DNA of 64,000 bases from Streptomyces sp. NBC_00554. GTDB lineage: Bacteria > Actinomycetota > Actinomycetes > Streptomycetales > Streptomycetaceae. The DNA is taken from contig NZ_CP107799.1 in assembly GCF_041431135.1 (NCBI RefSeq), forward strand, positions 4,836,001-4,900,000, in the 5' to 3' direction. The translations under genes were made by a program, and so were the position numbers. Of this stretch, positions 1 through 15,894 are shown in pieces. The notes beneath the pieces are model-generated. The model ran no database searches. It was not told the DNA's origin and saw only the letters and a list, made by a program, of their open reading frames with translations. The stretch's first letter is position 1. Each line of letters starts with the position of its first letter.

Positions 1-545
1 GCCGCCTTGGCCTCGGTCCACTTGCGCAGATCGCCGTAGAGCCCTCGGCGGGCGTCGGCCTGGCAGCCGTCGGCGCTGGTGAAGATCTGGCCGCGGCCGG
101 GCGCCGGGACGACGATCGCGTCGCGGTCGGTGCCGTTCAGGGCGCGGTCGAACTCGGCCTGGCGGCGCGGCGGGAGGGAGGCGATGTAGCGCGCCTGGGG
201 ACTTTTCCCGGCCGCGGCCTTCCCGCCCCGGTTGCCGGACCGGGCCGCCTCGGCCAGACCGTAGCCGTGCGCGCGGGCCCAGGCGACGTCGTCCAGGCCG
301 AAGCGGCGGGTGGGTACCTCGCCGCGCGGCCCGTCCGGGTCGAGCCCGTACTCGAACCCCTTGTCCCGCATACAGCCGGCGATCAGCCGCTCCTCGGCCC
401 CGCCGAGGGTCTTGCGCTCCGCGTCGGTCAGTCCGGTACGCAGCCGGCCGCCGGTGTCCTCGGCCGGCCGGTCGGCGGCGGAGCAGGCCGTGACGAGCAG
501 CAGGCCCGTGACGGCGAGCGTCCGGAGCAGATCCTTGCCGCTCAT
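1..545 (-). CDS. Putative secreted lipoprotein (3' end outside window)
   Basis: The gene starts at the ATG complementary to 543-545, preceded by a GAGGAG ribosome site, and runs off the left edge, so only about 181 N-terminal codons are visible. The product begins with a short charged end, a hydrophobic stretch and a lipobox (LLVTAC) with the acceptor cysteine near residue 21, so it is probably anchored to the outer face of the membrane. The mature part is hydrophilic with two further cysteines (IAGCMRDKG, DGCQAD), a pattern common in small Streptomyces lipoproteins of unknown function. Its promoter region, shared with the divergent serine hydrolase gene, carries an ACTTCCGGAT box pointing toward it. 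No enzymatic motif is seen. Confidence 0.8.
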   Translation of the reverse strand, partial: MSGKDLLRTLAVTGLLLVTACSAADRPAEDTGGRLRTGLTDAERKTLGGAEERLIAGCMRDKGFEYGLDPDGPRGEVPTRRFGLDDVAWARAHGYGLAEAARSGNRGGKAAAGKSPQARYIASLPPRRQAEFDRALNGTDRDAIVVPAPGRGQIFTSADGCQADARRGLYGDLRKWTEAKA

Positions 546-710
546 CGGAACTCCTCGTGTCGTTTCGTCGTTTCGTCGATTCGCGTCGTGGACGGTGATC
601 CGCCGCCGGGGAGACGGTCCCCGGTCCGGACCGAACTCGTGGCACCCGACCGATGCTGTGCGGGGCGGCCGGACGCTGCGGAACGTATCCGGGGCGAGGT
701 CCCGTGCGTC

Positions 711-726
711 ATCCGGAAGTTCACGG
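711..726 (-). promoter_or_regulatory. ACTTCCGGAT box facing the lipoprotein gene
   Basis: Read on the minus strand the sequence is CCGTGAACTTCCGGAT, about 166 bp upstream of the lipoprotein ATG. The same box lies upstream of the serine hydrolase and M23 peptidase genes. No CCTAG follows at the expected spacing here, unlike at the other two copies. It could be a regulator site or a -35-like promoter element; the sequence alone cannot decide. Confidence 0.45.
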
Positions 727-788
727 AATGACGCCCCGCATGCAGGTGGGGTAGGGCCGGGGCAACCCACCGGCATGCGGCGCGGACC

Positions 789-804
789 CCGTCAACTTCC
801 GGAT
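789..804 (+). promoter_or_regulatory. ACTTCCGGAT box facing the serine hydrolase gene
   Basis: The sequence CCGTCAACTTCCGGAT lies about 142 bp upstream of the GTG start at 946. A CCTAG motif follows after a 20-bp spacer, a layout like a two-part promoter. The M23 peptidase gene has the same pair with a 21-bp spacer. Confidence 0.5.
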
Positions 805-945
805 ACCGCAGGGCCGGTGAGCGACCTAGCGTGCTCCCGCCGCCACCGGTCGGAGCCGAGGAGCGCCGGCGCGAGGCTGCTGCCCGGCCCGTACCGGTGC
901 CCGTACCACGCACCGCGGCGGCCCGACCGAAAAGGGGAACCCACT

Positions 946-2169
946 GTGAACAGTCCGACCACCCGCCACGGCAGTTCGGCCGTCGAGCGACCGCCTAACC
1001 GGCGCGGGACACGCCTGCGGCGACTCGGTGCGTACGCCGCCGTCCTCGCCCTGGCCGCAACAGTGCTGGGCCTGACCGGGACGCCACGGGCCACCGCCGC
1101 ACCGGCCCGTGCCACGCAGGCCGAGATACCGGCGGGCGTGACCGCCGGCGTGGCGGTCTTCGACCGTACGACCGGGACCTTCACCGAGCGGATCAACGAG
1201 ACCCTGAAGTTCCGCTCGGCCTCGGTGGTGAAACTGCTAATCGCCCTCGACTACCTGCGCACCCACGACCCCCGCACCCTGTCCGCCGCCGACCGCACCC
1301 GGCTCGACTCGATGCTGCGCAGCAGCGACGACACCGCGGCCAGTTACTACTGGGACCTCGGCGGGCGGACGGCGATCATCGACCGGACGGTGGCGCAGCT
1401 CGGCCTGACCGACACCGCCAACCCGCCCGCCGGGTACGAGGAAACCTGGGGGTACGTGGCCCTGTCGGCCGCCGACACGGTACGGATCTACCGGTACATC
1501 CTGGACACCGCCTCGGCGCCGGTGCGCGACTACGTGATGGGCAACCTGCGGCAGTCGACGCGCTGCGGCACCGACGGGTTCGACCAGCACTTCGGCATCG
1601 CGGGCTCCTTCGAGCGGCCGTGGGCGGTCAAGCAGGGCTGGTCCGGCTTCGGCAGCTCCGGCGGTTGCACCCCCAAGCCCCCGACGACCGCCTTCGCCGC
1701 AGCGGGGGTCCAGGGGTCCGCTCAGCGGGCCGCGGCCGCCGTCGACCTGACGCGGGAGGCGCTGCACACCACCGGCACGGTCGGGGCCGGCGACCGCACC
1801 ATCGTGGCCGTGTTCACCCTGCACCCCGACGGCACCCCGTACGGCACGGCCTACACGGACCTGGGCCGGCTCACCCGCTCCCTCGACGTGCCGGGCGCCG
1901 TCCGCCCGTCGGGAACCTGGTTCGGCACCTGGAGTTCGGGCGTGAACGTACGCCCGCGGCCCACCACCGTCGACTCCGCGCCGCTGACGACGCTGCCGGC
2001 CGGCGTGGAAGTCCTGGTGAGCTGCCAGAAGTTGGGCCAGGAAGTCACCATTCCGCCATACACGAACACGTGGTGGGCCTATCTCCCCCAGTACGGCGGC
2101 TACGTGACCAACATCTACATCACCTCGCCGGGGAACCAGCTCCCCGGAGTGCCCGTCTGTTCCTCGTAA
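946..2169 (+). CDS. Secreted class A beta-lactamase-like serine hydrolase with C-terminal SH3-like domain
   Basis: The GTG start at 946 follows AAAGGGGA; the frame is open further upstream but with no better site. The 407-residue product has an Arg-rich N-terminus, a hydrophobic signal segment (about 28-52) and a penicillin-recognising fold. S93-V-V-K96 is the SxxK nucleophile motif, S127-D-D is a variant of the SDN motif, and K229-Q-G stands where KTG is expected. Residues from about 322 to the end look like a bacterial SH3 domain, probably for wall binding. Family knowledge suggests a DD-peptidase- or beta-lactamase-related hydrolase; the altered SDN and KTG motifs argue against assuming real beta-lactamase activity. 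A strong terminator follows the gene. Confidence 0.85.
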   Translation: MNSPTTRHGSSAVERPPNRRGTRLRRLGAYAAVLALAATVLGLTGTPRATAAPARATQAEIPAGVTAGVAVFDRTTGTFTERINETLKFRSASVVKLLIALDYLRTHDPRTLSAADRTRLDSMLRSSDDTAASYYWDLGGRTAIIDRTVAQLGLTDTANPPAGYEETWGYVALSAADTVRIYRYILDTASAPVRDYVMGNLRQSTRCGTDGFDQHFGIAGSFERPWAVKQGWSGFGSSGGCTPKPPTTAFAAAGVQGSAQRAAAAVDLTREALHTTGTVGAGDRTIVAVFTLHPDGTPYGTAYTDLGRLTRSLDVPGAVRPSGTWFGTWSSGVNVRPRPTTVDSAPLTTLPAGVEVLVSCQKLGQEVTIPPYTNTWWAYLPQYGGYVTNIYITSPGNQLPGVPVCSS

Positions 2170-2186
2170 GAAGCGCTGGACGAGTG

Positions 2187-2230
2187 GCGGAGGGCCCCAC
2201 GTGGAACGGAATCCACGGGGGCCCTCCGCC
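2187..2230 (+). terminator. Long GC-rich hairpin after the serine hydrolase gene
   Basis: The arms GGCGGAGGGCCCC(A)CGTGG and CCACGGGGGCCCTCCGCC pair almost perfectly around a short AACGGAAT loop, 18 bp after the stop codon. There is no U-tract, as is usual for Streptomyces terminators. Confidence 0.8.
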
Positions 2231-2384
2231 TCCTTCCCCGTGCGCCGACCGGGCGGACGGCCGCCCCCGGCCTCCGGCGGAATCCAGCCAACGCACGCGC
2301 AGCGAAGCCCGTACGGGGTACCCCCGGGGGCTACGATGCCCGGCGGCCTGACCAGCCGAAAAGCGGGGGAAGGAAAATCTGCCG

Positions 2385-3185
2385 ATGAGCGGCATACTGA
2401 TCCATTTGCCGTCAGCGCACCGAACGGAGCCGACGACGACCCGGCGCCTGGGACCGGGGGAGACCGCGCGCTTCGGCCGGGGCACGAAGGCGCATCCGGT
2501 CGAACTGCTGCTGCCCGACCCGGCCGTCTCCCGGCTCGCCGGGGAGATCCGGGTGACGGAGGACCACTGGCAGCTCACCAACTTCTCCACCACCCACAGC
2601 TACCTGGTCGAGAACCCCGAAGGGGCCGGGGAGTACCTGCGGGTCCCGCCGCGCCGGTCGGGGGCGCCGATCCCCTTCGAGTTCGCCCGGGTCGTGCTGC
2701 CCACCCGGGGCTCCACGGTGAGCTTCCAGGTGTTCGCGCCCGACCACGTCTACCTCGACGCGGACGATCCCGGCGGCGCCTGGGGCACCCGTACCCTCAA
2801 CGCCTACTCCCTGGACGAGACCGCCACGTACTTCCTCGTCCTGGTGGCGCTCTGCGAACCGCGGCTGCGCGACGAGTCGGCCGTCTCCGTGCCGAGCACC
2901 CCGCAGGTCGTGGAACGCATCCGCGCCCACCCGGCGCTGTCGCGGCTGACCGCGCGGGCGGTCAGCGCCCACATCGACTACCTGGCCGAGCAGAAGCTAC
3001 GGGTGCGCGGGCCGCAGGACGTCGACGCCTCGGGCAGCGGTACGCGGCGTACCGGCAAGCGCGAGGCCGTCGTCGGCGTCGCACTGCGCTTCGGCCTGGT
3101 CCGCGAGGAGCACCTGGCACTGCTGCCGTCCCGCGCCCCGGGCCTCCCGCTCCCGGCACCGGCACCGTCCGGGGGTAACCGGTGA
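2385..3185 (+). CDS. FHA-domain protein, partner of the adjacent kinase
   Basis: The ATG at 2385 follows a GGAAGGAAAA ribosome site. The 266-residue cytoplasmic protein carries an N-terminal forkhead-associated domain (about 20-105) with the hallmark FGRGT loop and a VSRLAGEI strand where FHA proteins have SRxHxxI. FHA domains bind phosphothreonine peptides. The C-terminal half (about 135-250) looks like a winged-helix module (LTARAVSAHIDYL, VALRFGLVREEH). The stop overlaps the GTG of the Ser/Thr kinase by 4 bp, so the two are translationally coupled. The protein is therefore likely a substrate or adaptor of that kinase. The FHA call is firm; the DNA-binding suggestion is weak. Confidence 0.85.
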   Translation: MSGILIHLPSAHRTEPTTTRRLGPGETARFGRGTKAHPVELLLPDPAVSRLAGEIRVTEDHWQLTNFSTTHSYLVENPEGAGEYLRVPPRRSGAPIPFEFARVVLPTRGSTVSFQVFAPDHVYLDADDPGGAWGTRTLNAYSLDETATYFLVLVALCEPRLRDESAVSVPSTPQVVERIRAHPALSRLTARAVSAHIDYLAEQKLRVRGPQDVDASGSGTRRTGKREAVVGVALRFGLVREEHLALLPSRAPGLPLPAPAPSGGNR

Positions 3186-4885
3186 GCGGTACGGGCGAGA
3201 CGTACGACGAGACGGTCGACGGGGGGACGGGCGAACCGGGTCGCGGCGGGACCGGGGAGACGGGCCCTGGTGGGACCGACGAACCGAGACCCGGCGGGAC
3301 CGGCGAGACGGACCACGACCGGACCGGCGAACCGCATCCCGACGAGACCGGCGAGACAGGCACCGGCGGCACCGGCGGCACCGGCGGCACCGGCGAATCG
3401 AGTCACGGCCGCACCGACGAGACGAACCAGGGCCGGACCGACGGGTCGGACCACAACGACTCCGCCAAGACCGCCGGCCGGATACCCCGAGGCTTCCGCG
3501 TAGGCCGCTGGGAGGTCACCGAGCCGATAGCCGACGGTGGTTGGGGGCAGGTCTACGAGGGCCGCGAGGCGTCGGAGGACGCGGCGGCCCCGGCAGAGGC
3601 GGAGGCCGCGGAGGGCGGCGCCGAAGCACCGCACCGGGTCGCGCTGAAGTTCCTGCCGACCTCGGGGCTGGCTCCCCGGCAGGCCGCGCGGCTGGCGGAG
3701 ACGGCGCGGCGCGAGATCGAGTTCGGCAGCCGGGCACACCATCCCCGGCTGATGCGGCTGTTGGACTCCGTGGTGCTCGGCGACAGCGAGGTGCCCGGAC
3801 TGGACGGCGCCGTCGTACTGGTCATGGAGCGGGCCGAGAGCAGCCTCCAAGACCTGCTGGACGCCGCGGACGGCAACCCCCTGCCGGAAGCGGACCGGCT
3901 GGTGACCGAGATCTGCGAGGGGCTGGCCCACCTGCACCGGCTCGGCTGGGTGCACGGCGACCTGAAGCCGGACAACGTGCTGATCATGGCGGACGGTTCG
4001 GTACGGCTCTCCGACTTCGGTCTCACCGTCGAGCTGGAGGGGACGCGCGGCACCCACGGCTACATCCCGCCCCTCGGATCGCCCGACTACCTGCCGCCCG
4101 AGCGCTGGAGGGCCCCGCTGGACGAACGCGGGGTGCAGGTGCGGCCCACCGCCGACGTGTGGGCCCTGGGCGTGATGATCCATCAGGTGTTCAGCGGGGG
4201 TGCCTCGCCCTTCCCCGGGGCCACCTTCACCTCCCGCGCCTCGGCGGTCCAGGAGTACGCCGAGGGCAGGGCGCCGCTCAGGCTGCACGTCGTGGTGCCG
4301 GAGTTCTGGCGCACCCTGGCCGCCGACTGCCTCCTGCCCGCCCACGTCGAGCGTGCGGCGCACACGGCGGACAGCCTGCTGGAACGCATCCGGGCCGCCG
4401 GGCAGGGGGACGACAGCCCGGCCGCCCGGCCGCGGAGTCGTAAGCGGGCCGTGGCCCTGGCCGCCGGTGCGGCGCTGGCCCTGCTCGGCGCGGGCGGCGG
4501 CGCCTGGTGGCAGTGGGGAGGCTCCGACGGCGCCTCCGGGCGGGCGCCGGAGGCGCGGCTGAGCGTGTACAACGCCGACGACAAGTGCCGCGCCAGCACC
4601 GACCGGCACCCGCTGTGCAGCCTCGGCCTGGCCATCGACCCCACCATGGCGTACGTCCTGGACAACGTTGTGCAGACCCGGGTGTGGCACGGCGATGTCC
4701 TCGCCGTCGAGTGCGGTCTGGAGCGGGGCATCCCCATCACCGACGAGGCGGGCGTCCGGTCGTCGCGGTGGTACCGGGTGCGGCTGCCCACGGCGGAGAA
4801 GGGTGCGGAGACCGTGCGGACCACCGCCTGGCTGCCCGAGGTGCGGACCAGGAGCAAGCCCTCCGTCCCGGCCTGCACCGGCTGA
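3182..4885 (+). CDS. Transmembrane Ser/Thr protein kinase with Gly-Thr-Glu-rich N-terminal tail
   Basis: GTG start inside the GTGA overlap with the FHA gene; 567 residues. The first ~95 residues are low-complexity TGE/GTGG/TDE repeats, an unusual acidic and Thr-rich N-terminal extension that could itself be phosphorylated. The kinase domain (about 105-395) has the Gly-rich loop IADGGWGQVYEG, the VALKF lysine, the catalytic loop HGDLKPDN (Gly for Arg in HRD) and SDFG. A single membrane segment (about 420-443, AVALAAGAALALLGAGGG) leads to a ~120-residue outer domain with paired cysteines (DKC, PLC, VEC, PAC). The outer part probably senses an envelope signal and the FHA protein reads the output. 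The HGD motif suggests an RD-independent activation mode. Confidence 0.92.
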   Translation: MSGTGETYDETVDGGTGEPGRGGTGETGPGGTDEPRPGGTGETDHDRTGEPHPDETGETGTGGTGGTGGTGESSHGRTDETNQGRTDGSDHNDSAKTAGRIPRGFRVGRWEVTEPIADGGWGQVYEGREASEDAAAPAEAEAAEGGAEAPHRVALKFLPTSGLAPRQAARLAETARREIEFGSRAHHPRLMRLLDSVVLGDSEVPGLDGAVVLVMERAESSLQDLLDAADGNPLPEADRLVTEICEGLAHLHRLGWVHGDLKPDNVLIMADGSVRLSDFGLTVELEGTRGTHGYIPPLGSPDYLPPERWRAPLDERGVQVRPTADVWALGVMIHQVFSGGASPFPGATFTSRASAVQEYAEGRAPLRLHVVVPEFWRTLAADCLLPAHVERAAHTADSLLERIRAAGQGDDSPAARPRSRKRAVALAAGAALALLGAGGGAWWQWGGSDGASGRAPEARLSVYNADDKCRASTDRHPLCSLGLAIDPTMAYVLDNVVQTRVWHGDVLAVECGLERGIPITDEAGVRSSRWYRVRLPTAEKGAETVRTTAWLPEVRTRSKPSVPACTG

Positions 4886-4916
4886 CGTCCTGGCCTGCGC
4901 CGGCTGAGCCGCGGGT

Positions 4917-4949
4917 CGCGGCGGCCCGGCCCCCGGGTGGGCCGCCGCG
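4917..4949. terminator. Hairpin between convergent kinase and M23 genes
   Basis: Eleven-base arms CGCGGCGGCCC and GGGCCGCCGCG flank an 11-nt loop in the 72-bp gap between two convergent genes. It can serve both directions. Confidence 0.7.
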
Positions 4950-4957
4950 GCCGGTGG

Positions 4958-5226
4958 TCAGGGGCAGCGTGTGGTGACGCCGCCGGTCTCGTCGCCCTTG
5001 AGGTAGATACCGCTGACGTAGCCGACGCCGCCCGCATTCAGCGGCAGACGGACCCACTTGTCGTTGGTGACACCCTCGGCGGTCACGCTCTGACCGACCA
5101 CCCAGCACTCCGCCGGGTAGGACTCACCCGGGTACACCTTGCTCTTGGCCTCACACGAAGTCGACGCACACGAACGGACATTGGCCTCCGCCCACGCCGT
5201 CACCGTCGCCGAACCACCACCACCGC
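4958..5226 (-). repeat. Left arm of a perfect 269-bp inverted repeat (SH3 module)
   Basis: Read on the minus strand this segment equals 7002-7270 on the plus strand at every base. It covers the poly-Gly linker, the whole SH3 module and the stop codon of the M23 peptidase gene. Identity ends at the stop codon on one side and within the Gly-rich linker on the other. Confidence 0.97.
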
Positions 5227-5755
5227 CACCGCCGGGCGTGCACGGCAGCCCGACTCCGCGGTCGCTCAGGTACGGCACCGGGTCGATGCCGCGGATCGAG
5301 GTGGAGGTGCCGACCCGCACCCGCAGATGCAGGTGGACGCCGGTGGAGTCGCCCTCGGAGCCCATCAGGGCGATGCGCTGACCGGCCGACACCTGCTGGC
5401 CGACGGAGACGTCCCGCTGGTACATGTGGCCGTACTCGGTCACGGTGCCGTCGGAGTGCAGGATGCGGATCCACTGGCCGTAGCCCTGGGCAGGGCCTGA
5501 GGCGATGACTTCGCCGGCGCCGACCGCGTATATAGGGGTGCCGAGCGAGTTCGCGATGTCGACACCGTCGTGGGCGCTGCTGTAGCCCTGGGTGACCACG
5601 CCGGCGGCCGGGCAGGAGCCGGCGAAGGCGGTGGCGGCGGCGGAGCCGTTCGTCGCCGCGTGGCCGGGGGCGGCCGCCACGAGGGGCAGCAGCAGGGCCG
5701 CCGCCGCGGCCAGCAGGCCGGCCCGCAGGTTCATCCCGTTCAGACCAAGACGCAC
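4958..5755 (-). CDS. Secreted M23 family metallopeptidase with C-terminal SH3 domain
   Basis: The GTG at 5755 is chosen because GGGAGGA sits 6 nt upstream; an ATG at 5719 is the alternative. The 265-residue product has a signal peptide ending at GHA-AT (about residue 34) and an M23/lysostaphin-like domain (about 45-165) with the zinc motifs HDGVD (H-x3-D) and HLH. A Gly linker follows, then an SH3 module with four to five cysteines (RSCASTSC, AECW, TRCP). Family knowledge: M23 enzymes cut peptidoglycan crossbridges. The SH3 module is base-identical to that of the divergent gene at 5990. The upstream region carries an ACTTCCGGAT box and a CCTAG motif 21 bp further on. Confidence 0.93.
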   Translation of the reverse strand: MRLGLNGMNLRAGLLAAAAALLLPLVAAAPGHAATNGSAAATAFAGSCPAAGVVTQGYSSAHDGVDIANSLGTPIYAVGAGEVIASGPAQGYGQWIRILHSDGTVTEYGHMYQRDVSVGQQVSAGQRIALMGSEGDSTGVHLHLRVRVGTSTSIRGIDPVPYLSDRGVGLPCTPGGGGGGGSATVTAWAEANVRSCASTSCEAKSKVYPGESYPAECWVVGQSVTAEGVTNDKWVRLPLNAGGVGYVSGIYLKGDETGGVTTRCP

Positions 5756-5876
5756 TTGGGTTCCTCCCATGAGGTAGCGGCTTCTGACGAGCCGTGGGGT
5801 GCGGTGGTCCGGCCCCGCCCGCTGGGGGACGGCAGGCCGGAGCACGGACCCTAGGCGCGCGGCGGCCCCCCGGGGC

Positions 5877-5892
5877 ATCCGGAAGTTTGCGG
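5877..5892 (-). promoter_or_regulatory. ACTTCCGGAT box facing the M23 peptidase gene
   Basis: The minus strand reads CCGCAAACTTCCGGAT, then 21 bp, then CCTAG, about 122 bp before the M23 start codon. This matches the arrangement in front of the serine hydrolase gene at 946, so the two wall-hydrolase genes probably share a promoter type or regulator. Confidence 0.5.
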
Positions 5893-5931
5893 AGAGACGG
5901 CGCCCGGTGGGGGCGGTAGTCCTGGACCGTC

Positions 5932-5979
5932 GTCCGCATCCACCAAGTCGTCCACATCCACCAAGTCCGCATCCACCAA
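5932..5979 (+). repeat. Three short direct repeats in the leader of the SH3/RlpA-like gene
   Basis: Units of 15, 18 and 15 bp (consensus GTCCGCATCCACCAA) run in tandem and end about 10 bp before the GTG at 5990, just upstream of the GGGGGAA ribosome site. They lie in the untranslated leader. Confidence 0.75.
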
Positions 5980-5989
5980 GGGGGAACCC

Positions 5990-7270
5990 GTGCGTGTCGT
6001 ATCCGTGCGTGCCAAGTGGCGTACGCCGCTGTGGGCAACGCAGGTCCTGTGTCTGCTGCTCGTCCTGACGGGCCTGACGGTGCCGTCCGCCGCCGCGCAG
6101 GATCAGAAACGTCAGGACAGCTGGCGCATCGACCTGTCGGGACCGGAGGCCGAGCGGGGCAACGTCGCCTCCCGTCCGGACGGGATCACCGTCGAGAACA
6201 GCAGAGCCCGGACACCGTCTGTACGGGGCGCCTCCCACGCCGTGTACACCTCGCCCGGCAGAAGCCTCGGCCGCCAGCTCACGGCGTTCACCGTGCTGAC
6301 CGAGGCGGAGCTCCCCACCGGCACGAAGGTGCAGACCGAGATCCGGGGCAGCAACCACCCGGGCACCTGGACGCAGTGGCGGACCATAGACGGCGCCGGC
6401 GCGGTCCGGCTGCCGCAGGCGGTCTCCCTCCTCCAGGTCCGGCTCACCCTGCTCGGCGTCCCCGGCGGTGCTTCACCCACCGTCCACGCCGTCACCGTCG
6501 CGGCCGCGGCCGAGCAGCCCGCGCCGCAGCAGACCCCGGAGAACGGCTTGTCGGCGGCCGCGTCCGGTCCCACCTACCGGCTGTTCGCCACCCGGGAGGG
6601 CCTCACCGGGCAGACCACCGCCAACGGCCATGTCATCCAGCCCCGCGACCACTTCGTGGCCCTGCCCTCGCGACGGATGCTGGCGGTCAACGGCGGACAC
6701 GAGTACCAGGTGCGGCTGTGCTACCAGGGGCGTTGCGAGACCGCGCCCGTGTGGGACGTAGGCCCGTGGAACACCCGCGACGACTACTGGAACCCGCCCG
6801 CGCAGCGGGAGATGTGGCGCGATCTGCCGCAGGGCACCCCCGAGGCTCAGGCGGCGTACCAAAACGGCTACAACGGCGGGCTCGACGAGTTCGGCCGACG
6901 AGCGGCGAATCCGGCCGGCATCGACGTCGCGGACGGCACCTTCTGGGACGGCCTCGGTATGACCGACAACGGCTGGGTGGACGTCACCTTCATGCCGGAC
7001 AGCGGTGGTGGTGGTTCGGCGACGGTGACGGCGTGGGCGGAGGCCAATGTCCGTTCGTGTGCGTCGACTTCGTGTGAGGCCAAGAGCAAGGTGTACCCGG
7101 GTGAGTCCTACCCGGCGGAGTGCTGGGTGGTCGGTCAGAGCGTGACCGCCGAGGGTGTCACCAACGACAAGTGGGTCCGTCTGCCGCTGAATGCGGGCGG
7201 CGTCGGCTACGTCAGCGGTATCTACCTCAAGGGCGACGAGACCGGCGGCGTCACCACACGCTGCCCCTGA
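5990..7270 (+). CDS. Secreted RlpA/double-psi-barrel-like protein with C-terminal SH3 domain
   Basis: GTG start at 5990 after GGGGGAA; 426 residues. A signal peptide ends near AAA-QD (about residue 36). Residues 37-180 form a beta-rich domain I do not recognise. Residues about 190-335 contain VWDVGPWNTRDD, GIDVADGTFWD and a closing DVTFMP strand, reminiscent of RlpA/expansin double-psi barrels; those proteins act on or bind glycan strands. A GGGG linker leads to an SH3 module (about 345-426) that is base-identical to that of the neighbouring M23 peptidase. It is divergent from the M23 gene with a 234-bp promoter region between them. The SH3 call is firm; the RlpA-like call is moderate. Confidence 0.8.
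   Translation: MRVVSVRAKWRTPLWATQVLCLLLVLTGLTVPSAAAQDQKRQDSWRIDLSGPEAERGNVASRPDGITVENSRARTPSVRGASHAVYTSPGRSLGRQLTAFTVLTEAELPTGTKVQTEIRGSNHPGTWTQWRTIDGAGAVRLPQAVSLLQVRLTLLGVPGGASPTVHAVTVAAAAEQPAPQQTPENGLSAAASGPTYRLFATREGLTGQTTANGHVIQPRDHFVALPSRRMLAVNGGHEYQVRLCYQGRCETAPVWDVGPWNTRDDYWNPPAQREMWRDLPQGTPEAQAAYQNGYNGGLDEFGRRAANPAGIDVADGTFWDGLGMTDNGWVDVTFMPDSGGGGSATVTAWAEANVRSCASTSCEAKSKVYPGESYPAECWVVGQSVTAEGVTNDKWVRLPLNAGGVGYVSGIYLKGDETGGVTTRCP
7002..7270 (+). repeat. Right arm of the perfect 269-bp inverted repeat
   Basis: This is the inverted partner of 4958-5226, with no mismatch found on a base-by-base reading. The two arms face each other across 1.8 kb holding the divergent promoters and both catalytic regions. 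Confidence 0.97.
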
Positions 7271-7297
7271 CACCGCCCCGCGGCAAGGGACCGGGAA

Positions 7298-7340
7298 TCC
7301 GGTTGGTGGGCCGGCGCCTTCCGTCGGCCCACCAACCGGA
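7298..7340. terminator. Hairpin between convergent SH3 and FAH genes
   Basis: Sixteen-base perfect arms (TCCGGTTGGTGGGCCG and its complement) surround an 11-nt loop in the gap between two convergent genes, suited to stop transcription from both sides. Confidence 0.85.
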
Positions 7341-7345
7341 CACGT

Positions 7346-8290
7346 TCAGTGTCTGTGACGGGCGCGGGGTACGGGTACGGGCGGCATCCCTTCGACCACG
7401 GTGTTGCTGATGCTTCCGATGCCCTGGACGGTCATGGTGACCGTGTCTCCGGGAGCGAGCGGTGGCGGTTCCGGGACCAGGTGGCGGCCCCAGAGTTCGG
7501 CCAGACAGCCGCCGTTGCCGCAGGTGCCGGAGCCCAGGACGTCGCCGGGGCGGACCCAGGTGCCGCGGGAGGCGTAGGCCGTCATCTCCTCGAAGGTCCA
7601 TGCCATGTCGGCGAGGCTGTCCTGGCCGACGGTCTCGCCGTTGACCTCGACGGTGAGGTGGAGGTCGAGGAAGCCGTCGGCCGTGCGGTGGGGTTCGAGT
7701 TCGTCGGCGGTGACCAGCCAGGGGCCGAGGGTGGTGGCGGAGTCCTTGCCCTTGGCCGGGCCCAGTCCGACTCTCATCTCGCGGCCCTGCAGGTCGCGGG
7801 CGGACCAGTCGTTGAGGATCGTGTAGCCGATGATGTGCTCGCGGGCCTGCGCCGGACTGAGGTTGCGGCCCGACTTGCCGATGACCGCAGCTACTTCCAG
7901 TTCGAAGTCGAAGCGCTCGCAACCGGGTGGGACGGGCACGTCGTCGTGGGCGCCGATCATCGCGTAGGGGTTGCTGAAGTAGAACGTGGGCGCCTGGTAC
8001 CACTCTTCGGGGACGGTGTCGCCGTGTCCGAGCGCCATGCCCTCCACATGACGCTCGAAGGTCAAGAAGTCCCGCACCGTGGGCGGCTGCAGAGGCGGCA
8101 GCAGTCGTACGTCGGCCAGGGGCAGGGGCGATGTCCCGGCCAGGGCGTCCGCAGCTGCCGTGCGCAACATGTCCTCTCCCGCCTTGATGAACTCCTGTAG
8201 TTCCGCAGGGACTTCGAAGGGGTGGACCTTGTCGTCCACCACGACTCCCGACTGCCGTCGGCCGCCGTACAGGAAGGTCGCGAACCTCAT
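7346..8290 (-). CDS. Fumarylacetoacetate hydrolase (FAH) family protein
   Basis: The ATG at 8290 overlaps the MFS stop (ATGA). The 314-residue product begins MRFATFLYGG and has the FAH fold signature: DFELEVAAVIG supplies the acidic metal ligands, followed by NDWSARDLQ, GKDSATTLGPWLVT and SGTCGNGG. FAH proteins are Mg-dependent enzymes that cleave or tautomerise acylpyruvates and hydrate dienoates in aromatic catabolism. It is the last gene of an MBL hydrolase-MFS-FAH operon controlled by a divergent TetR regulator, so it probably degrades a compound the operon imports, exports or hydrolyses. The substrate cannot be read from sequence. Confidence 0.9.
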   Translation of the reverse strand: MRFATFLYGGRRQSGVVVDDKVHPFEVPAELQEFIKAGEDMLRTAAADALAGTSPLPLADVRLLPPLQPPTVRDFLTFERHVEGMALGHGDTVPEEWYQAPTFYFSNPYAMIGAHDDVPVPPGCERFDFELEVAAVIGKSGRNLSPAQAREHIIGYTILNDWSARDLQGREMRVGLGPAKGKDSATTLGPWLVTADELEPHRTADGFLDLHLTVEVNGETVGQDSLADMAWTFEEMTAYASRGTWVRPGDVLGSGTCGNGGCLAELWGRHLVPEPPPLAPGDTVTMTVQGIGSISNTVVEGMPPVPVPRARHRH

Positions 8291-9873
8291 GACCGGCTCC
8301 CTTCCAGCTGGGCGGCGGCGCGCGGCCTCACGCCCAGGAATACGGCGGCGATGACGGCGGCGGTCGCGCAGGCGCCGGCGGTGAGCAGGAGGACATCGGC
8401 GTATCCGTCCGCCAGGGCCCGTTCGGTGAGCGGGGCGAGCTTGGCGCTGAGGGGGCCCAGGTCGGCGGTGTGCAGCGCGAGCGGGCCGCCTCCCTCGAGA
8501 ACGGCCGTGGCCGTGCCGTGTTCGGCGGGGGTGAGGGCCGCCGCACCGAGGCTGCCGGTCAGCTGGTCGGTGGCCACGGCGAGGGCGACCGCGCCGACGA
8601 CCGCGGGGCCGAGGGTCTGGCCGAGGTCGCGAACCAGGCTGGTCGTCGCGGCGGCCATGCCGGTGAGATGGGGAGCCACGACGTTGACGGCGGCGGCGGT
8701 GATGGCGGCGACGACCAGTCCGAAGCCGACGCCGTTGAGAACAAGTGGCCCCAGCAGGGCGGGAATTCCGGTCTCGTGCACCGGCACGGCACGCAGCCAC
8801 AGCTGGGCGACGGCCAGCGAGACGAAGCCGGTGACCAGCATCGGACCCGGCCCCACCCGCTGGAGCAGGCGGACAAGGAGCGGCCAGATGAGCGGGGTGA
8901 CGGCCTGGATGATCAGGAACGGCACCGCGGCCCGCAGCGGGCTCTGGTGCTGGATGACACCGAGCCGGATGCTCAGGTCGTACGCGCCGCCCAGGAAGCC
9001 GAACATGCCGATCACCGCCATGGCGGCCGAGGCCGAGAACGCCCGATTGCGGAACAGCTCCAGGCGCAGCATCGGAGACTTGCTGCGCGACTCGGCCGCG
9101 ATGAACGCCCCCAGCATCACCGCGGCGAGGACGAAGGAGCCGACGACCGTCACCGACCCCCAGCCGTCGGTGGGGCCCTGGATGATGCCGTAGAGCAGGG
9201 CCAGCAGGGCGAGGGCGATGGTGATCTGCCCCGGCCAGTCCAGCGAGCGGCCTTCGGGTGCGCTCGATTCGGTGGTCAGCCGCCAGGCCGCGACCGCGGT
9301 GGCGAGCGCCAGGATGCCGGTGGCCGCGAACGCCCAGTGGAACGAGGTGTGTTCGACGACCGCCCCGGACAGCAGCGGGGCTATGAGGGCGCCCAGGGAC
9401 AGCGCGGTTGTCCAGGAGGCCAGGCCCCGGGCGCGGGCCGCCGGTGTCGGGGTCCCGGCGATGATCACGGCGAGGGAGGCTGGGAAGAGGGCCGCGGCAC
9501 CGATGCCGGACAGCGCCTGGCCGGTGATCAGCTGCGCCGCCGAGTCGGCGGTGGCGGAGACCAGATAGCCGACCGCCGCCAGCAGGGCGCCGCCCACCAG
9601 GAGTTTCTTGCGGCCGTACAGGTCCCCGACGACACCGAAGGTCAGCGCCAGGACCGCGGCGGGCACGAGGAACGCGTCGCTGATCCAGGTGAGTTCGGCG
9701 CCGGAGGTCCCCAGGGAGCGCTGGATGACACCGTTGATCGCGGCGGGCAGGACGAGGCCGATCTGGGCGAGGCAGACGGCCAGGCATCCGGCGATGAGGG
9801 TGCCCGGACGCAGGACGGCCGGCGCGCTGGAAGGGGCGGCGGCGGGTGGGTCGTAGGCGGGGCTGGAGACCAT
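8287..9873 (-). CDS. MFS transporter, DHA2-like (about 14 membrane segments)
   Basis: The ATG at 9873 is preferred over one at 9900 because AAGGAGGAGAC directly precedes it. The 528-residue protein has an MFS signature loop GDLYGRKKLL between segments 2 and 3, a second-helix ISDAFLVPAA motif of the EmrB/QacA type, and roughly 14 hydrophobic segments. Such proteins are proton-coupled exporters or importers in the plasma membrane. It sits between the MBL hydrolase and FAH genes, with 4 bp overlap to the latter and 56 bp to the former. It probably moves the operon's substrate or a toxic product. Confidence 0.93.
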   Translation of the reverse strand: MVSSPAYDPPAAAPSSAPAVLRPGTLIAGCLAVCLAQIGLVLPAAINGVIQRSLGTSGAELTWISDAFLVPAAVLALTFGVVGDLYGRKKLLVGGALLAAVGYLVSATADSAAQLITGQALSGIGAAALFPASLAVIIAGTPTPAARARGLASWTTALSLGALIAPLLSGAVVEHTSFHWAFAATGILALATAVAAWRLTTESSAPEGRSLDWPGQITIALALLALLYGIIQGPTDGWGSVTVVGSFVLAAVMLGAFIAAESRSKSPMLRLELFRNRAFSASAAMAVIGMFGFLGGAYDLSIRLGVIQHQSPLRAAVPFLIIQAVTPLIWPLLVRLLQRVGPGPMLVTGFVSLAVAQLWLRAVPVHETGIPALLGPLVLNGVGFGLVVAAITAAAVNVVAPHLTGMAAATTSLVRDLGQTLGPAVVGAVALAVATDQLTGSLGAAALTPAEHGTATAVLEGGGPLALHTADLGPLSAKLAPLTERALADGYADVLLLTAGACATAAVIAAVFLGVRPRAAAQLEGSRS

Positions 9874-9929
9874 GTCTCCTCCTTGCTGGGTGCGGGTCAT
9901 GGCCGAGGGGAAGCGGCCACGGAGGCGGC

Positions 9930-10865
9930 TCAGGGGTGGGCGAGGCAGGCCATGCGGCCGAAGAGCTGGGGGCCGTCGAGCGGGGGCAGGCCGGGGTCGA
10001 GTTCGCGGTAGACCGTGTAGACGTTGACCGCGAGGCGTTCGCTTTCATCGAGGCCGGCGAAGGGGCCGAGGCGGATGTCCCGTGCCGCGTCCGCGGCCGG
10101 CATTCCGGCGGTGAAGCGGGCGGTGGCCTCTTCATGGACGTACGAGAGGTAGTCGCGGACGGTCCGGACGGCCGCCTTGGTGGTGACCGGGCCGTGTCCG
10201 GGCACGACGGTGTCCACGTCGAGGCCCAGCAGCAGGTCGCAGGCGGCGAGCCCGCCCGCGAACGGGCCGTGCCATACGAGGGGGGTGGCGCCGACGAAGA
10301 CGATGTCACCGGTGTAGACGGTCCGCGCGCTCGGGACATGGACGATCGTGTCTCCGGCGCTGTGTGCGGCTCCCACGTCGATCAGCCGGACCTCCGTCCC
10401 GCCGATGTCCAGGACCGTCTCGCCTTCGAACACCCGGTTCGGAAGGACGGGTCGGACATCGCGGTAGTCGAAGCGGGCGAAGATCCGGCGGGCGAAGCGT
10501 CCGGCGTCGCTGTCCTCGGCCAGCAGCGCCCGCACCTCGGCCGGGCCCGCCTGCCGCATGTCGGTCAGCGATCCGCGGGCCGCGATGATCTCGGCGTGGG
10601 CCACGAGCTGGTTGCCGAACCAGTGATCGCCGTTGCCGTGGGTGTTGACCACGGTCGAGATGGGCGCGGTGTCGGTCAGCGGCGCAAGGCCGGCCAGCAT
10701 GGCCCCGGTCAGGTGCAGGTCGAAGAGGGTGTCGACGAGCAGGGACTCGCCGCGGCCGGTGACCAATCCGGCGTTGCTCATTCCCCAGCCGCCGGCGCTC
10801 GGGATCCACGCATGACAGCCACGGCCGAGATCGACCGGGCGGAGGGGAGAAACCAGGGAAGCCAC
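9930..10865 (-). CDS. MBL-fold metallo-hydrolase with HxNxDH active-site variant
   Basis: The GTG at 10865 follows GGAGG by 4 nt; an in-frame ATG at 10925 lies inside the operator palindrome and is unlikely. The 311-residue cytoplasmic protein shows the metallo-beta-lactamase layout: NAGLVTGRGESLLVDT, THGNGDHWFGN, DVGAAHSAGD, YTGDIVFV and VVPGHGPV. The metal motif is HGNGDH, with Asn where HxHxDH enzymes have the second His. Relatives with this variant exist among MBL-fold hydrolases. It heads the operon with the MFS and FAH genes. It probably hydrolyses a lactone, thioester or ester precursor of the FAH substrate (inference). Confidence 0.9.
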   Translation of the reverse strand: MASLVSPLRPVDLGRGCHAWIPSAGGWGMSNAGLVTGRGESLLVDTLFDLHLTGAMLAGLAPLTDTAPISTVVNTHGNGDHWFGNQLVAHAEIIAARGSLTDMRQAGPAEVRALLAEDSDAGRFARRIFARFDYRDVRPVLPNRVFEGETVLDIGGTEVRLIDVGAAHSAGDTIVHVPSARTVYTGDIVFVGATPLVWHGPFAGGLAACDLLLGLDVDTVVPGHGPVTTKAAVRTVRDYLSYVHEEATARFTAGMPAADAARDIRLGPFAGLDESERLAVNVYTVYRELDPGLPPLDGPQLFGRMACLAHP

Positions 10866-10881
10866 GCTGCCTCCAGTGCAA

Positions 10882-10921
10882 GACTTGAGTCCATTGATGG
10901 ACTCAAGTCCACCAATGGACT
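10882..10921. promoter_or_regulatory. TetR-type operator: 28-bp palindrome plus a second 16-bp half-copy
   Basis: Positions 10882-10909 form a palindrome with 13-bp perfect arms (GACTTGAGTCCAT / ATGGACTCAAGTC) around TG. An overlapping imperfect palindrome AGTCCACCAATGGACT spans 10906-10921. It lies between the MBL start and the TetR start, so TetR can control both directions. Confidence 0.85.
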
Positions 10922-10985
10922 GCAATGTAAATAGGAGGGGTCGGGCGGGTCAAGACCCGTGCACGCCCGTGCTGTACTGGGGGCC

Positions 10986-11642
10986 ATGCAGATCCCGGAG
11001 GCAGGAGCCACAGCCGCAGCGGACACCCGGCCCACCGGACGCCGCGAGCGCAAGCGCCGGCAGGTGCGCGATCAGCTCTACGCCGCCGCGCTGGACCTGT
11101 TCGTCACCCAGGGCTACGAGACGACGACCATGGAGCAGATCGCGGAGGCCGCCGACGTGGCCCGGGCCACCGTCTTCAACCACTTCTCCCAGAAGGTCGG
11201 CTTCCTGGAGGAGTGGGGCGCCCGGCGGCGGGCGCGGGTCGCGGAGATCCTCGGCTCGTCGCAGCTGGAGGACCTGTCGACGGGCGACCAACTGCGCCGC
11301 TACCTACGGGAGATGGCCGAGCTCAATATCGCCTCCCGGCCGGAGACCACCGTCCTGATGGACGCCGGCGCCCGGGTCGGCAGCCTCCTGCACGACCGGT
11401 CCCTGGAGATCGAACTGGCGAAGATCGCCGAGCGGGGACGGCAGCGCGGCGAGCTCCGGACAGGCGTCGACGCCGACCAGGTCGGCGCCATGCTGGCCGC
11501 CAGCTACTTCTCCACGGTCCTGCGCTGGATCCGGGTGGAACCCGCCCCCTTCGACCTGCGCGACCGGCTCGACGGGGCCCTCGACGTCATCCTGCTCGGC
11601 ATTCTCGACCGGGAAGGGGAGGGCGTACCTTCCGGCCGCTGA
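10986..11642 (+). CDS. TetR family transcriptional regulator
   Basis: ATG at 10986 with GGGGG just upstream; a GTG at 10959 is an alternative start. The 218-residue protein has a basic N-terminus (GRRERKRRQVRDQLY), the TetR helix-turn-helix (TTMEQIAEAADVARATVFNHFSQK, about residues 37-60) and a helical ligand-binding C-terminal domain. It is divergent from the MBL-MFS-FAH operon with a long palindrome between, the usual layout for a local repressor that responds to the operon's substrate. Confidence 0.92.
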   Translation: MQIPEAGATAAADTRPTGRRERKRRQVRDQLYAAALDLFVTQGYETTTMEQIAEAADVARATVFNHFSQKVGFLEEWGARRRARVAEILGSSQLEDLSTGDQLRRYLREMAELNIASRPETTVLMDAGARVGSLLHDRSLEIELAKIAERGRQRGELRTGVDADQVGAMLAASYFSTVLRWIRVEPAPFDLRDRLDGALDVILLGILDREGEGVPSGR

Positions 11643-11763
11643 ACCGGGCCGGCAGATGGAGCGCGGGATGCGACCTCGGTCGTAGTCCGCCCTCTATCTC
11701 CGGATACAGACCGTCGGTGCGGAGATCAGGTTCTGAGCCGATGTGCCGGGGTGGCCGGTCTTC

Positions 11764-11782
11764 GAGGATTGAAGAAATCCTC
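11764..11782 (+). promoter_or_regulatory. Small hairpin (GAGGATT-gaaga-AATCCTC)
   Basis: Seven-base perfect arms with a 5-nt loop lie between the TetR stop and the amidase start, ending about 20 bp before that start. It may be a weak terminator or an operator. Confidence 0.4.
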
Positions 11783-11802
11783 CGCCACCTCAGGAGTCTG
11801 TG

Positions 11803-12720
11803 ATGAGCACCAAGACAGGGCCCCAGCGATACCCCGCCGCAAGCCGGTCGAACTGGTACCAGGACGATTTCGGCGGCGACGCCATGCAGGTCAATGTCGT
11901 CGTCCTGCACACCACGGAGGGTTCCAGCCTGCCCGGATACGGCGGCGGTTCCTCCGCACCGAACCTGACGGCGGTCCCCGACCTCGCCGCCAAGAAGCTG
12001 AAGTGGTACCAGCACTTCGACATAGAGACCTCCTCCAGAGCGCTGGTCAATCTGCGGGGCGGCGTCGAGACCAACACCATGAACGTGTGCCAGGTCGAGC
12101 TGGTCGGCACCTGCGACCCGGCGACGCACGCGAAGTGGAAGGCCGCGGGCCGGGCGCACATCTACTGGCCGGACGCGCCCGACTGGGCACTGCAGGGCGT
12201 CGCCCGCTTCCTGGCCTGGATGCACGAGGAGCACGGCGTACCGCTGTCCGGCCCGAAGTCGTGGCCCGCGTACCCCACTTCGTACGCGAACCGCGCAGGC
12301 CAGCGGCTGAAGGCCGCGCAGTGGACGGACTTCAAGGGAGTGTGCGGGCACATGCACGTGCCCGAGAACGTCCATGGCGACCCCGGCGCGATCGACTTCG
12401 CCAGGCTCCTCAAGCACGCGAAGGCGGACCTGGATCTGGGCGACGACACCCCGGAGCCGACCACACCCGCCAAGCCGAAGGTCCCGGCGTTCCCGGGACG
12501 CAAGTACTTCGTGGCCGGGGCGTCGAACGCGTACGTCCTGCAGCTCGGCAAGCAGTTGGTGAAGCGCGGCTTCGGCGATCACTACAAGGTCGGCCCGAGC
12601 AGGACCTGGGGCGAGGCGGACCGGCTGAACGTACGGGACTTCCAGAAGTCACGGAAGGAACTGCGCGGCGACGCCGACGGCACCCCCGGACCGCTGACCT
12701 GGCGCCTACTGTTCTCCTGA
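11803..12720 (+). CDS. N-acetylmuramoyl-L-alanine amidase-like protein with peptidoglycan-binding C-terminus
   Basis: ATG at 11803 with AGGAG 8 nt upstream. The 305-residue product lacks a signal peptide. Residues about 25-205 resemble an amidase_2-type domain as in actinophage endolysins: VVVLHTTEG, then VCGHMHVPEN and HGDPGAIDF supply the His and Asp/Glu positions. After a TPEPTTPAKPK linker, the last ~75 residues (LQLGKQLVKRGF, DGTPGPLTWRLLF) look like a peptidoglycan-binding repeat. No holin or phage gene is nearby, so it is either a domesticated endolysin or a cytoplasmic-start enzyme of unclear export. It is convergent with the response regulator, 23 bp away. Confidence 0.75.
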   Translation: MSTKTGPQRYPAASRSNWYQDDFGGDAMQVNVVVLHTTEGSSLPGYGGGSSAPNLTAVPDLAAKKLKWYQHFDIETSSRALVNLRGGVETNTMNVCQVELVGTCDPATHAKWKAAGRAHIYWPDAPDWALQGVARFLAWMHEEHGVPLSGPKSWPAYPTSYANRAGQRLKAAQWTDFKGVCGHMHVPENVHGDPGAIDFARLLKHAKADLDLGDDTPEPTTPAKPKVPAFPGRKYFVAGASNAYVLQLGKQLVKRGFGDHYKVGPSRTWGEADRLNVRDFQKSRKELRGDADGTPGPLTWRLLFS

Positions 12721-12743
12721 CATCACGAGATACCGAGCCCAAG

Positions 12744-13403
12744 TCAACCGGCGGGCGCGCCCCTTGGGCGGACGAGGCCGCTCTCGTACGCCAGGATGGT
12801 CGCCTGCACCCGGTCCCGCAGCCCCAGCTTGGTGAGCAGGGCGTTGACGTGGGTTTTGACGGTTCCGGTGGTCACGCCCAGGGTGGCCGCGATCTCCGCG
12901 TTGGCGAGGCCCGAGGCGATGTGGAGCAGCACTTCCCGTTCGCGCGGGGTGAGTTGGCCGAGGGCGCCGGTTACGGCGGGCGGCGGGGGCGCGCCCTGGG
13001 CGAAGGTGTCGATCAGGCGGCGGGTGACGGCCGGGGCGAGGATGCCCTCGCCGGAGGCGACGACACGCAGCGCGGTCAGGAGCTCCTCGGGCTGGGCGTC
13101 CTTGAGCAGGAAGCCCGAGGCGCCGGCCCGCAGCGCCTCGTACACGTAGGCGTCGAGGTCGAAGGTGGTGAGCACCAGAACGCGGGGGCCCGTCTCCAGC
13201 GCGGTGATGAAACGGGTCGCGGTCAGGCCGTCCATGCCGGGCATCCGGATGTCCATCAGGACCAGGTCGGGCGCCTCGCGGGTGGCGAGCTGCACGGCAC
13301 TCGCACCGTCGCCGGCTTCGCCGACCACGGTCATGTCGGGTTCGGCGTCGACGATGGCGGCGAACCCTGCGCGGACCACCGCCTGGTCGTCGACGACCAT
13401 CAC
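12744..13403 (-). CDS. NarL/LuxR-type response regulator
   Basis: The GTG at 13403 overlaps the kinase stop by 4 bp (GTGA); an ATG at 13400 is equally possible. The product is about 219 residues. The receiver domain has the VVDDQ acidic pair, the phospho-acceptor in DLVLMDIRMP and LVLTTF plus LLKDAQPEELL (switch Thr and Lys). The C-terminal LuxR helix-turn-helix reads LTPREREVLLHIASGLANAEIAA... then GTVKTHVNALLTKLGLRDR. It is translationally coupled to the histidine kinase at 13400-15748. A close paralogous pair lies at 26610-29668. Confidence 0.93.
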   Translation of the reverse strand: MMVVDDQAVVRAGFAAIVDAEPDMTVVGEAGDGASAVQLATREAPDLVLMDIRMPGMDGLTATRFITALETGPRVLVLTTFDLDAYVYEALRAGASGFLLKDAQPEELLTALRVVASGEGILAPAVTRRLIDTFAQGAPPPPAVTGALGQLTPREREVLLHIASGLANAEIAATLGVTTGTVKTHVNALLTKLGLRDRVQATILAYESGLVRPRGAPAG

Positions 13404-15748: not shown

Positions 15749-15894
15749 GTCGGGCACGAGCGTAAGGCCCGCCGCACGGTCAGGACATCGGGCCTCCGGC
15801 GCTACGGGCGGAGGGCGTCTCTATCCTGCGGTAGAGGCTCCGGTCCTCCGCTGCGCCGACGACTCAACGGCCGCCCGGCGGAAGGTTGGTGGCC

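Follow-up and report, generated by a model that had tools for sequence, protein, structure and literature searches.

Gene conversion probably keeps a shared SH3-like module alike in two divergent wall-protein genes of Streptomyces

The window analysed here is a stretch of 64,000 nucleotides from Streptomyces sp. NBC_00554 (contig NZ_CP107799.1). Close to its left end, two genes for secreted-type proteins lie back to back, one for an M23 peptidase and the other for a partner protein that we continue to call RlpA-like, and the 3' ends of both carry the same SH3-like module as a pair of inverted arms (Table 1). The start codon of the M23 gene is our own choice, its open frame beginning at 6358. 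Similarly, the frame of the beta-lactamase-like protein opens at 310, and 910 is an arbitrary cut with no start codon.

Table 1. Genes and repeat arms at the locus, with positions in the window
Feature	Position	Strand	Basis
Beta-lactamase-like protein with diverged SH3-like tail	910..2169	+	PF13354
266-aa protein, conserved next to the kinase gene	2385..3185	+	Seen with the kinase in relatives
Ser/Thr protein kinase gene, convergent with the M23 gene (gap of ~70 bp)	3182..4885	+	PF00069, 103 bits
Left arm: end of the M23 gene (SH3-like module and stop codon) plus the next base	4957..5226	-	270/270 complementarity
M23 peptidase, Gly-rich linker, SH3_3 module (265 aa)	4958..5755	-	PF01551, PF08239
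Divergent intergenic region, presumed to contain both promoters; within the inter-arm core	5756..5989	.	Position only
"RlpA-like" secreted-type protein: conserved core of unproven fold and SH3-like module (426 aa)	5990..7270	+	
Right arm: end of the RlpA-like gene (SH3-like module and stop codon) plus the next base	7002..7271	+	Complementarity, profile and fold matches

The M23 protein belongs to its Pfam family by a wide margin (PF01551, 98.5 bits against a cut-off of 28.7), and lysostaphin and LytM are among the PDB matches of the domain. HxxxD and HxH motifs are present in the translation, and we presume that they carry their usual meaning in an M23 protein; the structure model was unusable (mean pLDDT 31). 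For the partner, the name given in the earlier note finds no backing in Pfam, as neither DPBB nor RlpA is among the families matched at E <= 1 by the 36 family members scanned. Its core could be modelled only with low confidence, so a remote relation to RlpA or DPBB may exist. It belongs to a conserved actinobacterial family: a search of genome contigs confirmed 141 relatives among 264 candidate stretches, of which the best 80 of the 141 were retained, and the family occurs in 42 of 392 Streptomyces genomes at E <= 1e-40. The 266-aa protein has no match in Pfam or NCBIfam. The tail of the beta-lactamase-like protein resembles the tails of RlpA-like genes in four distant Streptomyces loci (L043, L044, L046, L047), and tails may therefore have been swapped among three clustered genes.

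The earlier note had described a base-perfect inverted repeat of 269 bp, and this is borne out exactly: 4958-5226 and 7002-7270 are reverse-complementary with 0 differences in 269, and the arm alignment adds one further matching base. The exact run stops 1 base beyond the stop codon of each gene, and its inward limit is the Gly-rich linker. A repeat search (20-base seeds, at least 40 nt) returned the arms at 98% over 283 nt with 1775 nt between them, and the remaining repeats that it reported in the window are only 73-80% alike. The module itself measures only ~243 bp. A third full DNA copy is absent from the 10.08-Mb genome, which holds one weak 41-bp match, and a genome search with the protein module at E <= 0.001 gave no third copy; from these DNA and protein searches, no other genomic copy is known that could act as a donor for copying.

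Some other repeats can be recorded here. At 62999-63239, an inverted repeat with 54-nt arms (80% complementary, 133 nt apart) surrounds a GC-rich stretch with CCGGCGTTTGAGGA-type sequence in both orientations, which looks like a repeated intergenic element. Direct repeats at 13000-13299/26878-27177 and 15071-15224/28982-29135 have 73-76% identity and a spacing of ~13.9 kb; since the first copies lie within a response-regulator/histidine-kinase pair (12744-15757), a paralogous two-component pair is likely ~13.9 kb further on. Scanning the other loci for repeats of at least 76% over at least 120 bp found inverted repeats at the loci that carry this gene pair, plus a further inverted pair in L159 (79% over 764 bp). 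Several loci have direct repeats, and in L046 (258 bp at 79%) and in L054 and L073 (about 130 bp at 82%) the RlpA-like gene overlaps such a repeat at its end.

The module matches SH3_3 (PF08239) at 27.6 bits in the M23 protein, just over the cut-off of 27, and at 22.3 bits in the partner, under that cut-off. The C-terminus of the partner-family profile has SH3-like wall-binding domains as its best four PDB matches, including 8b2f (E 1.2e-4) and 8b2g, and the other five matches of the profile are unrelated proteins at E > 0.2. Foldseek placed 8b2f at rank 12 for the modelled module, with a TM-score of 0.80 by target length and E 0.01; this structure entry contains triglycine. By profile and, with a weaker score, by predicted fold, the shared module is thus an SH3-like wall-binding domain, which would bind peptidoglycan. 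The arms are one such module, C-terminal on two otherwise unrelated secreted-type proteins that are encoded back to back. Elsewhere in the window, the protein at 11800-12720 has a C-terminal peptidoglycan-binding domain (NF038080, "PG_bind_siph") and may be a phage-derived wall hydrolase.

The divergent pair with both modules is present in 11 Streptomyces genomes, nine of them from a set of 392 Streptomyces genomes and two from the contig search for the partner family. Group A has six members: the window; G267 (Streptomyces sp. NBC_00620, L033), of the same species as the window; G325 (S. apricus, L034); G264 (SID12488, L036); and G091 and DI166 (L035). Group B has five: TRM68416 (L037), G343, G189, G222, and G356 (S. 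carminius, L040). Among the 42 partner-positive genomes, the window and 17 others were read with their flanks; the remaining 24 are at 43-54% identity. A further genome search returned 10 matches, all in genomes already in the set, and another returned, the window apart, G039 (60%) and others at 41-51% identity. In the tree of the catalytic parts, one branch (100/100) divides A from B. The midpoint root, used for drawing, puts G356 beside group A; group B may therefore be a grade, with the older of the two arrangements.

Some care is needed with individual assemblies, as those of some relatives are in many contigs and their arms could be blurred. A suspected deletion in an arm of G356 proved to be a run of N; its partner module was left out of the module tree and the genome out of all site-pattern counts, and its pS line is meaningless. 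G039 and G188 have a partner with the module and no M23 match inside the fetched stretch. Their modules (L152, 8265-8501; L153, 8602-8844) have 78-82% protein identity to that of the window and their cores only 54%, so the module may travel between lineages separately from the core. The locus of G376 (L148, 7133-8746) has apparently decayed, with M23 fragments and an SH3 module still recognisable in another frame. We dropped it as a natural control for loss of the partner, since its RlpA-like frame ends before the module and its M23 gene is present only as fragments.

Within group-A genomes, the two module copies have a pS of 0 (the window), 0.017, 0.017, 0.068, 0.105, and 0.126, compared with 0.14-0.37 for orthologous modules across group-A species; the highest internal value, that of G264, is scarcely under the 0.14 that separates it from the partner module of G091. 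Within group B, pS is 0.20-0.29 in the four genomes with full arms. The comparison of synonymous divergence in relatives that the earlier note proposed thus gives 0-0.13 in group A and the higher range in these four group-B genomes, and the two ranges argue for conversion that is strong in A and partial in B.

Site patterns give the same question a finer grain. Two-state sites were scored in 10 genomes, giving 45 pairs that overlap and are not independent. A site was called concerted if the copies are alike within each genome and differ between genomes, and orthologous if they are alike by gene. Concerted sites prevail in 14 of the 15 group-A pairs (10-36, vs 0-1 orthologous) and in all 24 between-group pairs (34-53 vs 0-3); the fifteenth group-A pair, the window and G267, has none of either kind and one singleton. 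The six group-B pairs are mixed, with concerted/orthologous counts of 10/12, 20/13, 17/13, 14/13, 12/11, and 3/18. Crossed patterns number 0-1 per genome pair. On a module tree of 21 rows, built without the partner copy of G356, a single clade of M23 modules was rejected both for group A (AU p 4.06e-39) and for the whole set (p 3.85e-05), with one set of identical rows unconstrained in both tests; for group B such a clade was not rejected (p 0.20).

Silent and non-coding positions follow suit. Window/G325 has 35 concerted sites, 10 of them synonymous; G264/G091 has 10, of which 5 are synonymous; and G343/G222 has 12, none synonymous. Synonymous concerted sites occur in five of the six genome pairs examined. 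Identity of the arms continues past the stop codons for 30 bp in G325 and for 14 bp in G267, the latter at positions where the copies of the window differ. In G267, the M23-side bases past the stop equal those of the partner side in both G267 and the window, which points to conversion of the M23 gene with the partner as donor after the divergence of the two strains; the alternative is an earlier conversion followed by change in the lineage of the window. That silent and post-stop bases follow the concerted pattern argues for ongoing gene conversion, and the earlier suggestion that the copies are kept the same in this way is strongly supported by these sites in the relatives. GC-biased conversion was also considered and found no consistent sign: in four genomes (the window, G267, G264, and G091) the module has a lower GC3 than either catalytic part, and in the remaining six it is higher or the comparison is mixed.

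The concerted pattern comes in patches in most genomes. Of the nine genomes with any arm difference, six show clustering of the differences by a permutation test on the longest identical run (p < 0.05), namely G091, DI166, TRM68416, G343, G189, and G222, and such clustering was not found in G267, G325, or G264. In group B, the two classes of site are segregated along the module in three of four pairs tested (p 0.00035, 0.00005, and 0.0001) and not in G189/G222 (p 0.29). Summed over the six overlapping pairs, columns 51-137 of the codon alignment hold 49 concerted and 0 orthologous sites, and columns from 216 onward hold 0 concerted and 60 orthologous; in each of the six pairs, the last codons have 0 concerted and 9-13 orthologous sites. 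The codon bins were set after the arm differences had been seen, and the runs test of segregation is independent of them. A concerted middle and an orthologous end suggest that in group B the middle is copied while the tails retain the identity of their gene.

The orientation of the core bears on whether the arms also cross over, as the earlier note had considered. In all six group-A genomes the kinase and M23 genes are convergent, with about 55-127 bp between them (five gaps were taken from match coordinates, and the orientation in DI166 was read from the locus). In all five group-B genomes the order is kinase, a further M23-type gene, and the partner gene, with the kinase facing the RlpA-like side; the extra gene was identified in G343, and the matching gaps of the other four align with it. 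It was not found in any of the five group-A genomes (all but DI166) searched at E <= 1e-20, in a search run without a positive control. Orientation thus amounts to one change on the catalytic-part tree. Of five group-A right flanks set against one another, the window and G267 have the only two that match. The contigs of G266 and G183 end within an arm (L160, L161), and both were excluded from the orientation count. G091 is in one contig and the genome of the window in two, which suggests long reads.

An invertible switch, in which recombination between the arms flips the 1.8-kb core often enough to leave mixed orientations, can draw on the geometry, which permits a flip that leaves both proteins intact, and on the kinase facing opposite genes in the two groups. 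Orientation is nevertheless uniform within each group, with that single change between them, so inversion as a recurrent event receives no support, and the two orientations were not found among close relatives, each genome being represented by one assembly. The single change in orientation goes together with the gain or loss of the further M23 gene at the group-B junction, which argues against a simple turn of the DNA between the arms. Since the core includes both presumed promoters, turning it would have little effect, and no recombinase is among the 12 window proteins scanned with Pfam (310-15757; two without any family). We consider such a switch quite improbable; as read from the assembled sequences, inversion would be at most old and rare, and one ancient event is possible.

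The explanation that we hold to be very probable is an old pair of modules whose copies overwrite each other by intrachromosomal gene conversion without lasting crossover. Both copies would be old, as their presence in 11 genomes suggests, and would have been overwritten by one another again and again; with tails repeatedly copied over each other, the pair would change together. Non-crossover conversion agrees with the patchy pattern, with its limits where homology is lost, and with the orientation having been retained, and RecA-type strand exchange between the inverted arms would do the copying. The main mechanistic rival, and a rival for that step only, is template switching at replication forks or another RecA-independent route. 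Inverted arms 1.8 kb apart and short tracts would suit it, as would the edge of the G267 tract, which falls within a GCCGCGG stretch common to both sides; the present data fit both routes equally, and in our estimate this one is rather unlikely. Taken alone, the complete identity of the arms in the window looks like a recent duplication of the module onto the second gene, made separately in each lineage with no conversion at all. This is highly improbable given the two-module architecture in 11 genomes, the gene-specific tails of group B, and the graded arm divergence of group A, and it would need independent gains at the same two sites in five group-A species. Many of the between-species protein changes are common to both copies, as parallel evolution under protein-level selection alone, with no copying of DNA, could produce; we give next to no credence to this reading in view of the synonymous concerted sites in window/G325 and G264/G091 and the 3' untranslated bases shared in G267 and G325.

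If gene conversion does maintain the modules, it is worthwhile asking which part of the module is kept alike. Columns 48-137 carry the most between-species protein change, with pN/pS of 0.161/0.296 (M23) and 0.176/0.259 (partner) in group A; the group-B values are 0.115/0.105 and 0.113/0.140. Columns 138-215 have a pN of 0.025-0.038 and a pS of 0.20-0.38, and the group-A tail comes near to columns 48-137 in pN (0.155 and 0.137). Raised pN in columns 48-137 could also come from relaxed constraint. Between the copies of one genome, the same stretch has pN/pS of 0.011/0.026 in group B, far under the other regions there, and of 0.039/0.103 in group A, the highest pN of the four regions; in G091, seven of the eight arm differences fall inside it. 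In group A the stretch is therefore kept no better than the rest.

By analogy with SH3b domains in general, columns 48-137 would hold the ligand-contacting loops. The shared module would keep both proteins aimed at one ligand. We can therefore offer, tentatively and as less likely than its opposite, the idea that a fast-changing stretch of the module is copied between the two wall proteins so that both follow the same changing wall structure, either the organism's own wall variant or that of a competitor, while their catalytic halves evolve separately. The within-genome contrasts favour this in group B and are neutral or against it in group A. The inverted placement may itself be kept because a crossover there cannot delete a gene, unlike one between direct repeats.

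Related cases exist, one of them far from bacteria. Conversion of the ligand-binding half occurs in paired receptors of the mammalian CEA family, and Boot et al. 1996 is the primary paper on the slpA/slpB segment inversion. In Salmonella tufA/tufB, near-identical segments of one chromosome are kept alike by non-reciprocal copying that is bounded by homology (PMC5485169); those are whole genes of one function, whereas here a C-terminal module of unrelated proteins is concerned, inverted and 1.8 kb apart. For PE_PGRS17 and PE_PGRS18 of tubercle bacilli, also adjacent actinobacterial paralogues, conversion was reported from strain comparison (PMC1762029); they are called a tandem duplicate within one family, whereas here one domain is shared and conversion extends across species. 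In Lactobacillus acidophilus, inversion of a segment that carries two surface-protein genes, slpA and slpB, swaps the active and the silent gene (PMC6176008), whereas here the presumed promoters lie within the core and recurrent flipping was not seen. Invertible hsdS loci of type I restriction systems likewise have inverted repeats in closely placed paired genes, and recombination alters their specificity (PMC7394358, PMC6620402), whereas here it would restore the same two proteins. Coevolution of receptor pairs is described for the activating and inhibitory CEA-family receptors (PMC2832619), which are mammalian receptors and not bacterial wall proteins. Among the matches listed in a search of open-access titles and the starts of abstracts, with subscription journals mostly outside it, conversion of a wall-binding module between divergent wall-protein genes is undescribed.

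The process is thus a known one, gene conversion, and its target is unusual. Selection may keep the modules alike, or nearness alone may do so. Conversion here acts on one targeting domain in two otherwise unrelated secreted proteins and couples the evolution of that domain between them, protein changes included. The locus offers a Streptomyces setting for measuring conversion between inverted arms and, if the ligand of the module changes too, it would be a natural test of whether conversion co-adapts the specificity of two proteins at once.
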